A stretch of DNA of 44,699 nt from an uncultured Planctomycetia bacterium. GTDB taxonomy: Bacteria; Planctomycetota; Phycisphaerae; FEN-1346; JAACEH01. The stretch is from positions 1 to 44,699 of the forward strand of contig CAIYVX010000074.1 of the NCBI GenBank assembly GCA_903929765.1, in the 5' to 3' direction. The notes beneath the pieces are model-generated. The model made no database searches, was not told the DNA's origin, and saw only the letters and a program-made list of their open reading frames with translations. Below are positions 118-4,280 of the stretch, one piece after another; within the stretch, counting starts at the first letter, position 1; each line of letters opens with the position of its first letter. The position numbers and the translations under genes are program-made.

Positions 118-180
118 AGCCCTTCAGCGGGCTTTGCCCCGACGAAGTCGGGGTTCAGGCCAGGGCTTTTAGCCCTGGTA
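118..180. repeat. Left REP-like palindrome array (outer arm)
   Basis: Three consecutive palindromes are visible: 118-133 (agccc...gggct), 137-153 (ccccgacgaagtcgggg) and 160-178 (ccagggct...agccctgg). The array is an imperfect inverted copy of 756-820: when the right array is reverse-complemented, the same three palindromes appear in the same order, joined by near-identical linkers such as cagcgggctttgcccc. The middle stem differs by paired changes (gacgaagtc here, ggcaaagcc on the right), so the hairpin is kept. This is the arrangement expected for REP/BIME sequences served by a RAYT transposase. Confidence 0.8.
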
Positions 181-225
181 AGGTGCGGGCGAACGAGATT
201 TTTCTTTTTCTTCTTTTTCTTCTTC

Positions 226-243
226 AGCCCGTTTTAACGGGCT
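226..243. repeat. Inner REP hairpin upstream of RAYT
   Basis: The palindrome agcccgttttaacgggct is preceded by a pyrimidine run (about 199-225, t/c only). Its inverted partner is at 696-713, which is followed by a purine run. These two form the inner pair of the nested inverted arrangement around the transposase gene. Confidence 0.75.
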
Positions 244-266
244 TACCATGACAGGCAGAGGCATTT

Positions 267-728
267 ATGCCGCGTAATGTCTACAGCGAGATCAACCTGC
301 ACATCACCTGGCACGTCAAGGCTAACGTTCCGGTCTTGAAAGACGCCGTCGAAATGCAACTACGCCGCCATCTGCGTGGCCAAGTTCTGGCCTCGCCCGG
401 CGTTTATTGGCATGATTGCGGCGGCACGGACAATCACGTTCATTTGGTCGTCACAGTTCCACCGTCGTTACTGGTCAGCGATTGGATCGGCGTCCTGAAG
501 GGTAGAAGTTCGCATTACATCAACCATGAGATCGTCAATCGGAAGTTGCTCCATTGGCAAGATGGGTACGGTGTTGTGAGTTTTGGGAGCAAGGATTTGC
601 CGTGGGTGCTCGATTATGTGCGTCGCCAGAGGGAACACCATGCCAGTGGTCAGATACATGAACGATTGGAGCGTATCGAACACGACGAAGAAGAAAGCCC
701 GCTGAAGCGGGCTGAAAAAGAAGAATAA
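267..728 (+). CDS. REP-associated tyrosine transposase (RAYT, IS200/IS605-like Y1 transposase)
   Basis: A 153-residue protein of the Y1_Tnp/IS200 superfamily, single-stranded DNA HUH transposases that cut and join with a tyrosine. The HUH motif is D55-N-H57-V-H59-L-V-V, and the catalytic tyrosine is Y117 in the sequence LDYVRRQREHH, the usual spacing for the family. RAYTs are single-copy, domesticated relatives linked to REP palindromes; the palindrome arrays on both sides fit that. The last eleven codons overlap a REP hairpin (696-713), so the C-terminal tail (ESPLKRAEKEE) is partly repeat-encoded. The ATG at 267 follows the hairpin at 226-243 and has no strong Shine-Dalgarno. No accessory tnpB is present. 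Family assignment is secure; present activity is unknown. Confidence 0.9.
   Translation: MPRNVYSEINLHITWHVKANVPVLKDAVEMQLRRHLRGQVLASPGVYWHDCGGTDNHVHLVVTVPPSLLVSDWIGVLKGRSSHYINHEIVNRKLLHWQDGYGVVSFGSKDLPWVLDYVRRQREHHASGQIHERLERIEHDEEESPLKRAEKEE
696..713. repeat. Inner REP hairpin inside the RAYT 3' end
   Basis: The palindrome agcccgctgaagcgggct lies within the coding sequence of the transposase and encodes about six of its C-terminal residues. It is followed by a purine run, mirroring the pyrimidine run before 226-243. The identical 18-base palindrome is repeated at 803-820. Confidence 0.85.
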
Positions 729-755
729 AAAAAGGAGTGGTGCTCGACGCCCGTT

Positions 756-820
756 GACCAGGCCCAAAGGGCCTGGCCTGTACCCCGGCAAAGCCGGGGC
801 AAAGCCCGCTGAAGCGGGCT
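756..820. repeat. Right REP-like palindrome array (outer arm)
   Basis: Palindromes at 758-776 (ccaggccc/gggcctgg), 783-799 (ccccggcaaagccgggg) and 803-820 (agcccgctgaagcgggct). The order is the mirror image of 118-180, and the linkers match as an inverted repeat. Together the arms delimit a unit of about 700 bases centred on the transposase. Confidence 0.8.
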
Positions 821-2066: not shown

Positions 2067-4280
2067 ATGTGGACCCACCCGCTCATCCTCGCCGGTCTCG
2101 TGACGCTGGCCCTGCCGGTCGTCATTCACCTGGTGCTGCGCTCGCGGCCGCAACAGGTCACATTTCCATCTCTGCGGTTCGTGACCGAGAGCCACCACGC
2201 CACGGCGGGTCTGGCGCGGCTGAAGCACTATGCGCTCCTCGCCCTGCGTATGGCGGCACTGGCCCTGGTGGTACTCATTCTGGCCCGCCCGATTGACCGG
2301 CCGCAAGCGGCGGTGGCGCTGGCGCGCAAAAGTGCCCCGGCGGCGGTCGTGCTTTGTTTCGACACCGCGCCGCGAATGGATTACCGCGAAATGGGCATCA
2401 CGCGGCTCGACATGGCCCGCCAACTGGCCACGCGGCTGGTCGATCAGTTGCCGCGCAGCAGCCGCCTTGCCGTGCTCACCTCGACCGCGCCGGCGGAAGC
2501 GGCCGGGCTGCGGGCCGACAGCACCACGGCCCAGGACGAAATCAAGGCCGTTTCGACCACCAGGGCCAGCGTCTCGGTGGCCGCGATGCTTCGGACGGCC
2601 GAAGGCCTCCTGGCCCAGGCGCCCGAGGAGCGCCGCGAAATTTATCTCTTCACCGACCTGGCCGCCGGGGCCTGGCGCGGACTCGCCGACGGGGCCTTCC
2701 GCAAATATAACCGCGTGCCGATCTATATCCTCGATGTCGGGCCGGGGGAAAAAGCTGAGAACCTGAATGTCGCCCTCGAACCGCTCCGGCTGTCGTCCGT
2801 CCGTCCCGCCGTCGGTTCCCCCGTGACCATCGCGGCCACAGTCCTCGGCGCCGCCCGGCCAACGAGCCGCACGCTCACCCTCGAAATCGGCAGCGCCGTT
2901 CGCAGTCGCCAGTCGATCGACCTCAAATCGCCCGGAGCCGTGGCCACGGCGACGTTCAATGAAACGTTCGCCGAGCCGGGTTTGGTGCAGGGCAGCGTGT
3001 CGATCCCGGAAGCCGATCCGCTTTTGGCCGACAACACGCGATTCTTCACGCTCCAGGTCGGCCGGCCGACGCCGGTCACGGTGATCCGCACCGAGACGCC
3101 GCCGCCGGGGGTTCTTGATGCCGCGGGACTGGTCGCCCAGGCCCTGGCGCCGCCGTCCAGTGGCATGGGCATCTTGCCCATGAGTCCCACGGGCGTCCCG
3201 CCCGTGGAAAGCAACGGAAACCACGGGCAAGATGCCCGTGCCACTGTAGACACCGTCGTCCCGACGTTTCTGCGAGCCCGCGACCTGAATGCCGACAGGC
3301 TGAAGGGCGTCGATACGGTTTTCCTGGCCGACTCTGCCGGCGTGTCGCCCGAAGGCTGGGCGGCGCTCGAACGGTTCGTCGCCGACGGCGGCGGCCTGAT
3401 CGTCCTGCTCGGCCACAACGTCGAGGCGGAAATCAAGGCCGGCCATTCCTCTTATATAAGCGCTGCGGCCGAGCAACTCCTGGGCGGCGCCATCGGAGCG
3501 GTCCGCGAAGCCGCCGCCGGCGCGCACCTGGCCGTACCGAGTTACAATCTCCCCGCCCTGGCCCTCTTCGACGCCGGCCGCAACGGCGACCTGGCCTTGC
3601 CGCTCATTTATCGCTGGTTCGAGTTGCAGCCCGCCGCAACGAGTTCCGTCCTGATCAAAGTCGGGACCGCACAGCCGGCGCTCGTGGCCGCGCCGCACGG
3701 CACGGGCCGCGTTTACGTCCTGGCCACCGCGCCGGAGTCCGGCTGGTCGAACCTTGCCGGCCAGGCCGAGTTCGTCATTCTCATGCACAGTCTCCTCGCG
3801 GCAGCCGAAGGGCAGGGGGCCGACGCGCCGCCGTTGGCCATCGGCGAACCCGTCACCGTCGCCTTGCCGCGAGGACTCTCCGGCCAGAGCGTTTCGTTGG
3901 TCGGCCCGGGTCTGGCCACGCCGGTGGCCGTGACCGTCAACCCGGCCACGAGTGCTGCCGTCTTTCCGCCTCTGGACCGTCCCGGCAACTTCCAGATTCG
4001 CGTTGGCTCTGACGCTAAACCGCAATTCGGTTTCAGCCTGAACATCGATCCGATTGAGAGCCGCCTGGAAAAGCGGCCGGTCGAAGCGGTCGAGAAGCTT
4101 TTCGCTCCCGGCCTGGCCCGCGTTTCGCCGACGCTCGACGCCCTGCACGCCGGCGAACAGATCGCCCTCGCCGGCACCCACGATTGGTCGGCGGCCCTGG
4201 TGCCGCTCCTGATGCTCGTCTTGGTCGCCGAACTGTTTCTCGCGAACCGCTTTTACCGTCGGTCGGTGGTGAAAAAATGA
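2067..4280 (+). CDS. BatA-domain membrane protein with VWA-like and glutamine-amidotransferase-like regions
   Basis: A 737-residue inner-membrane protein. The N-terminus carries the BatA double-helix anchor: a first membrane segment in WTHPLILAGLVTLALPVVIHLVL and a second around residues 56-75. A VWA-like domain follows from about residue 91, but its metal site is degenerate (DTAPRM instead of DxSxS). A later segment (ALERFVADGGGLIVLLG) resembles the amidotransferase-like fold often found in these proteins. A last membrane helix lies near the C-terminus (LVPLLMLVLVAELFLANRF). It starts 7 bases after the DUF58 stop. Residues about 365-394 (GMGILPM...GQDARAT) come from an in-frame palindromic repeat at 3158-3246. 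Confidence 0.88.
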   Translation: MWTHPLILAGLVTLALPVVIHLVLRSRPQQVTFPSLRFVTESHHATAGLARLKHYALLALRMAALALVVLILARPIDRPQAAVALARKSAPAAVVLCFDTAPRMDYREMGITRLDMARQLATRLVDQLPRSSRLAVLTSTAPAEAAGLRADSTTAQDEIKAVSTTRASVSVAAMLRTAEGLLAQAPEERREIYLFTDLAAGAWRGLADGAFRKYNRVPIYILDVGPGEKAENLNVALEPLRLSSVRPAVGSPVTIAATVLGAARPTSRTLTLEIGSAVRSRQSIDLKSPGAVATATFNETFAEPGLVQGSVSIPEADPLLADNTRFFTLQVGRPTPVTVIRTETPPPGVLDAAGLVAQALAPPSSGMGILPMSPTGVPPVESNGNHGQDARATVDTVVPTFLRARDLNADRLKGVDTVFLADSAGVSPEGWAALERFVADGGGLIVLLGHNVEAEIKAGHSSYISAAAEQLLGGAIGAVREAAAGAHLAVPSYNLPALALFDAGRNGDLALPLIYRWFELQPAATSSVLIKVGTAQPALVAAPHGTGRVYVLATAPESGWSNLAGQAEFVILMHSLLAAAEGQGADAPPLAIGEPVTVALPRGLSGQSVSLVGPGLATPVAVTVNPATSAAVFPPLDRPGNFQIRVGSDAKPQFGFSLNIDPIESRLEKRPVEAVEKLFAPGLARVSPTLDALHAGEQIALAGTHDWSAALVPLLMLVLVAELFLANRFYRRSVVKK
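3158..3246. repeat. Palindromic repeat read in frame within the BatA gene
   Basis: Arms 3158-3179 and 3225-3246 are inverted copies matching at 21 of 22 positions (core gggcatcttgccc / gggcaagatgccc). Between them lies a second palindrome at 3187-3207 (ccacgggc...gcccgtgg). The element translates as GMGILPM...TGVPPV...HGQDARAT, a peptide signature I recognise as recurrent in planctomycete genomes because the repeat lands inside genes. It adds about 30 residues between the VWA-like region and the next domain without breaking the frame. Confidence 0.85.

Follow-up and report, generated by a model that had tools for sequence, protein, structure and literature searches.

A Y1 (HUH) transposase gene enclosed by two mirrored series of hairpins lies near the left end of the 44,699-nt stretch analysed here (the window), which is the entire contig C74 of a 3.83-Mb, 116-contig assembly of an uncultured Planctomycetia bacterium. 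Between positions 117 and 821, hairpins A, B, C and D precede the transposase ORF (267-728), and D', C', B' and A' follow it in mirrored order. We consider it probable, at about 0.7, that this locus is the gene-bearing form of a mirror-symmetric mobile unit, part of a REPIN-like system with gene-less units that is driven by a class-1 Y1 transposase. The unit would have the structure [A-B-C-tract-D]-tnpA-[D'-tract-C'-B'-A'], and gene-less units of about 214-305 nt with the same ends would be its non-autonomous relatives.

Layout of the locus and its left flank

The features of the locus are as follows.

1-121, no strand: apparent right end of a multicopy insertion sequence (IS), not native flank of the unit (identity to the end of contig C31; shared termini)
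104-121, no strand: terminal inverted repeat of the putative IS, CGATTAAACCGACAAGCC, found inverted at the ends of contigs C13, C5 and C54
122-127, no strand: CTTCAG, apparent 6-bp IS target duplication in the loop of hairpin A (C13/window junction)
117-134, + strand: outer hairpin A, left, its 5' part contributed by the IS end (module match 117-179)
137-153, + strand: hairpin B, left, CCCCGACGAAGTCGGGG, stem variant GAC/GTC
160-178, + strand: hairpin C, left, part of the left module match 117-179
199-225, + strand: pyrimidine (TTC) tract separating C from D, with its mirror counterpart in the purine run at 714-737
226-243, + strand: inner hairpin D, immediately upstream of the ORF, with an equivalent at most homologous loci
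267-728, + strand: Y1 (HUH/tyrosine) transposase gene, 153 aa, with motifs NHVH, WQ and YVRRQREHH
696-713, - strand: inner hairpin D', inside the ORF at its 3' end; the equivalent hairpin encodes ...KPAEAG... in homologs
714-737, - strand: purine run, mirror of 199-225
758-776, - strand: hairpin C', right, in the right module 757-821 (96.5 bits)
783-799, - strand: hairpin B', right, CCCCGGCAAAGCCGGGG, stem variant GGC/GCC
803-820, - strand: outer hairpin A', right, at the unit's outer end, in the right module 757-821

The nested mirrored arrays that an earlier sequence-only reading had described around the gene are real, with coordinates correct to within a few bases. The outer arms, which it took for an imperfect inverted repeat, are 72% complementary (122-222 against 714-814), and their self-match on the opposite strand (E = 1.6e-15) is far above chance expectation. 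Its claim of two stem variants, GAC/GTC and GGC/GCC, with the hairpin kept by paired changes, was borne out as well. Among 141 distinct A-B-C modules, 98.5% of stem cells are paired, and changes on both sides occur at 21 of 22 pairs. The covariation score of 0.441, against 0.112 for shuffled and at most 0.10 for slid alignments, comes from an alignment fitted to the model, which biases it in the model's favour. Loop A is mostly TTCA or TTTA when read from the outside inwards and loop C is T-rich; each hairpin therefore has a direction, and this direction is opposite in the two arms. Sequence similarity falls immediately beyond A in most genomes, the sequence outside A being unrelated.

The stem of the left hairpin A is shorter than that of its mirror copy A', part of the left A being an inserted IS end. 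The first 141 bases of the window recur unchanged at the end of contig C31; contigs C13, C5 and C54 have another terminal sequence in common, with the 18-bp terminal repeat inverted. Because both shared sequences terminate in CGATTAAACCGACAAGCC, inverted relative to each other, they would represent the two ends of one multicopy IS, and the shared 141-bp stretches would be leftovers of the assembler at an impassable repeat. Beyond the IS terminus comes, in every case, CTTCAG or CTGAAG and then CGGGCT; the IS, whose terminal repeat is GGCTTGTCGGTTTAATCG, apparently enters the CTTCAG loop of A-type palindromes, duplicating 6 bp. REPs are known targets of IS elements in other bacteria (PMC1525189). 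On contig C44, near 69170-69197, there is only a short match to the IS end, adjoining the same CTTCAG loop.

A moxR gene has its 3' end on contig C13, with ...GTTTCAGCCCGCTTCAG after it. The contig terminates in ...CAGCCCGCTTCAG, and the window side of the junction begins with CTTCAGCGGGCTTTG; when C13 is joined to the window from position 122 with a single copy of CTTCAG kept, the full hairpin A is restored. Since moxR directly precedes the DUF58 gene, without a module, in three relatives (G001, of the same family, G002 and G004), C13 is likely to be the left neighbour of the unit, a placement that draws on synteny and on the 6-bp duplication across a C13-C74 link that is not assembled. The unit and a small ORF (879-1163) would then separate moxR and the DUF58 gene, which are normally neighbours. 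This ORF of 94 aa, placed between the unit and the DUF58 gene and lacking a Pfam match, is missing at the corresponding position in relatives and may have been acquired together with the hairpin unit or later. Elsewhere in the window, ORF 2067-4280 contains an in-frame repeat-like peptide, residues GMGILPMSPTGVPPVESNGNHGQDARATVD, inside a large protein, and this looks like a different palindromic repeat inserted into coding sequence.

The adjacency of moxR and DUF58 in these relatives provides an empty site at the level of genes. The empty site sought in the sequence-only reading was thus obtained in this form and not to the base: among genomes available as single representatives, neither a base-exact empty site nor a target duplication of the unit itself was found. 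When unit flanks of genome G330 were compared with those of G238, of the same genus, the ruvC-like, serS and dprA genes were present without modules and the intergenic DNA was unalignable. Several gene-less units of genome G354 (L149-L158, L243-L267) lie between inverted copies of a further repeat, CACTGCTC..GAGCTTGCTGTTACCCACAT, which also terminates other, unrelated repeats in that genome; many single ends of this outer repeat were seen, and a clean empty site around these units was not found.

The transposase and its homologous loci

The 153-aa protein matches PF01797 with 68 bits and the IS200 model NF033573 with 62.4 bits, above the cut-off of 55. An AF2 model (pLDDT 86) has as its nearest fold the IS608 TnpA bound to its end hairpin. 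The tyrosine motif is YVRRQREHH (Y-x3-Q-x2-HH). The motifs resemble those of TnpA_Y1 subclass 1.2, which is defined by DH[IV]H, WQ and a YIKNQKEHH-type motif and has been reported from Cyanobacteria and Bacteroidetes with the classification 'REP: no' (Quentin et al. 2018, PMC6006769): the window protein has NHVH and most homologs DHVH, together with WQ, Y-x3-Q-x2-HH in most, and a length near 150 aa. Unlike the canonical subclass-1.2 members compared, the window clade lacks the C-terminal region ...EEELLALLKKHGIxYDExY; inspection of the sequences shows the subclass-specific C-terminal domain to be missing, the C-terminus reading ...RLERIE.. and then continuing into hairpin-encoded residues. 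In a phylogenetic tree the window clade is monophyletic (99/98) and stands next to IS200 (94/81), on a long stem branch and with uncertain rooting. On these sequence characters the protein is best classified as an IS200-like class-1 single-strand HUH/Y1 transposase in a clade of its own, and not as a class-2 RAYT.

The gene had previously been read as a RAYT, and an ordinary class-2 RAYT with flanking REPs would share the REPtron-like layout of one gene, inverted hairpins on either side and dispersed copies. We regard this identity as very improbable and have rejected it on family models, tyrosine motif, tree and fold. The RAYT model NF047646 gave no match to the protein at E<=10. A second Y1 protein encoded in this genome, serving as a control, showed the reverse behaviour towards the IS200 and RAYT models and scored 67.8 bits on NF047646 (below its cut-off of 80). 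The tyrosine motif differs from the Y---NP that defines class 2 (PMC6006769), the clade is separate in the tree, and the fold match to the E. coli RAYT (6e-5) is much weaker than that to IS608 (2e-9). Moreover, a GTAG-type tetranucleotide (GT[AG]G) has no consensus before hairpin A in 129 modules from 8 genomes.

The closest homologs include a named Planctomycetota MAG. The genome holds one copy of the gene: several near-identical copies were not found, and the next Y1 matches are far weaker. No TnpB was seen beside the gene. At 1e-5, no plasmid matched the window protein; with a homolog as query and a looser limit, distant plasmid matches appeared.

Twenty-four homologous loci, sharing 41-69% identity, were inspected, and at most of them the gene lies inside a hairpin array, with hairpins at the start and stop codons and more hairpins outward. 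Exceptions are L072, L074 and L078, and also L073, L075 and L086, which are degenerate or truncated. A strict stem rule recovered both inner hairpins at 13 of the 22 loci with full flanks, and 20 of these 22 have mirrored flanks at z>4. At many loci the C-terminus of the protein (...KPAEAG...) is encoded by D'. Canonical subclass-1.2 genes, meant as a negative control, also had strong mirrored flanks (z>4 in 18 of the 20 with full flanks), which contradicts the published 'REP: no' (PMC6006769). Such genes from Planctomycetota and from two Bacteroidota plasmids (L046-L068, L268, L269) are enclosed by mirrored hairpin arrays; in a Persicobacter plasmid, the left arm belonging to one such gene is present at 8 places.

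Dispersed modules and the presumed mobile unit

A covariance model of A-B-C built from five modules detected at least 11 modules at E<1e-11 in this genome. Between 2 and 37 modules are listed in each of ten relatives carrying the gene, and every tested genome with a close homolog was positive; the palindromes are thus enriched here and in relatives, as had been anticipated, in the form of ordered A-B-C modules. Across the 397 genomes of the class, mostly MAGs and one representative per species, modules occur in at least 30 (strict filters, a lower bound). Gene and module occur together in 13 genomes, the gene alone in 9, the module alone in 17 and neither in 358 (Fisher p = 5e-11, an optimistic value since the genomes are related). 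Of the 30 module-bearing genomes, 17 thus have no close homolog of the gene, and 15 of these hold only more distant class-1 homologs; MAG incompleteness may hide further ones. Nine of the 22 gene-bearing genomes have no R1 module, and their hairpins differ in sequence. Modules are more similar within a genome (0.675) than between genomes (0.545). A description of these repeats was not found in the open-access literature by sequence-string and keyword search.

The modules listed number 152 in 14 genomes, and 98 of them are arranged as 49 convergent pairs; only 2 neighbours, both belonging to adjacent units, have any other orientation. Pair spans are bimodal, with 42 pairs of 214-305 nt that contain no gene and 7 pairs of 665-837 nt, all 7 of which enclose the transposase. 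In this genome, gene-less mirrored units lie at C54:135-422 and C94:51539-51775, and single modules at C6, C62 and C72. The unit on C94 is immediately upstream of an apparent tmRNA (read by eye). In genome G002 a gene-less unit stands beside the gene unit, and its centre resembles the 5' leader of the gene unit joined to its 3' end; judged by its sequence, it is apparently an internal-deletion derivative. The transposase gene is mostly single-copy, and the gene-bearing form was not seen multiplying. The proposal of the sequence-only reading that the locus is an intact transposition unit largely holds in its design, which recurs at most of the 24 loci and is accompanied by gene-less copies, and not in its left boundary, which is an IS end.

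These counts bear on the idea that the hairpins are static BIME-like arrays, for example terminators or mRNA stabilisers, spread by recombination or gene conversion and with the transposase gene only incidental. The hairpins are indeed intergenic and near gene ends, and D and D' flank the ORF, D' overlapping its end. Yet the gene lies inside the array at most of the 24 loci despite identities of only 41-69%, gene and module co-occur, every pair of the long class contains the gene, and the arrays interrupt a moxR-DUF58 pair that is otherwise adjacent. We therefore consider static arrays unlikely.

A more serious alternative, though still a minor one in our estimation, is that mobility or repetition resides in the half-unit (A-B-C-tract-D), that pairs are merely half-units which came to lie, or persisted, head to head, and that the gene became trapped between two such copies. 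Half-units that stand alone and end at D are found at most loci read in genome G330 (L200-L210), some of them immediately preceding genes such as serS and dprA, and the single modules at C6, C62 and C72 fit the same explanation. Against it stand the 49 convergent pairs, with only two neighbours in other orientations and with narrow, genome-typical spans, as well as a D-to-D' spacer that is common to the copies in G396. Arm lineages, assigned by a two-medoid test (average-linkage clustering gave mostly outlier clusters), also combine one-to-one in three genomes, where both lineages contribute an arm to 22 of 23 units, namely 8 of 8 in G396, 5 of 5 in G333 and 9 of 10 in G354, with permutation p-values of 0.02, 0.12 and 0.03, respectively, uncorrected for the six genomes tested. 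On the pairing of stem variants that the sequence-only reading had asked about, this pattern was seen in three of the six genomes and not in G002, G381 and G069; where present, it suggests copying of whole units. Units in G396 (L213-L224) have additional mirrored sequence resembling CCGTGACAGTTnnGGCGGCCACGTCAC at their borders, which may be a fourth outer hairpin.

Under the preferred reading of a mirror-symmetric mobile unit, the enzyme would recognise the directional hairpins on single-stranded DNA, for instance at the replication fork, as IS608 TnpA does its end hairpins. It would process the mirrored unit, and gene-less units would probably be copied in trans, with the gene itself remaining close to one copy, a situation likened to that of REPIN/RAYT systems (PMC3116915). 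Mobility of the unit, and movement still occurring, are presumed here, as are movement of the whole unit rather than the half, binding and cutting of the hairpins by the enzyme, the identity of the hairpin cut and the choice of target.

Relation to known systems and significance

The system resembles REPIN/BIME elements with their RAYT (TnpA_REP) and the REPtron (PMC3116915, PMC8266576, PMC6006769) in its dispersed inverted hairpin pairs, in a mostly single-copy Y1 gene flanked by the same hairpins, and in doublets that outnumber singles. As in REPINs, the inverted pairs form a long hairpin, a gene-less unit folded as single-strand DNA giving z = -12.5. Unlike in REPIN/RAYT systems, however, each arm consists of three hairpins in fixed order together with an inner one, in place of a single REP, no GTAG foot was found before A, the transposase is of class 1 (IS200-like) and not class 2, and the gene lies inside a unit that shares its ends with gene-less units. 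With IS200/IS605 elements (IS608, ISDra2) the locus has in common the fold, the family-model match and hairpins near both ends, whereas the hairpins here are numerous, mirrored and present in gene-less copies. The gene-less derivatives, which have both ends of the gene-bearing copy, recall the MITEs of DDE transposons, but the transposase is of the HUH/Y1 type, and the ends are stacked hairpins with compensated stem variation and without a conserved terminal repeat.

It is tempting to generalise, and the chances seem to us evenly balanced, that residence inside mirrored multi-hairpin units, of which gene-less copies are spread, is the rule for class-1 (IS200-like) Y1 transposases of Planctomycetota and probably also of Bacteroidota; this would be a REP/RAYT-like arrangement with an origin outside the known RAYT classes, overlooked for lack of a GTAG tag. 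What the mobile unit of REP systems is should be directly testable here, because a single genome contains a gene-bearing unit and many gene-less ones that share its ends; the enzyme and the four hairpins to be tested are defined, and whole units and half-units occur naturally as substrates. The findings could also explain some of the hairpin-rich DNA between genes in these genomes. They point to a REPIN-like system among transposases of a class given as REP-free in the reference classification, and REP-transposase partnerships may thus predate RAYTs or have multiple origins.
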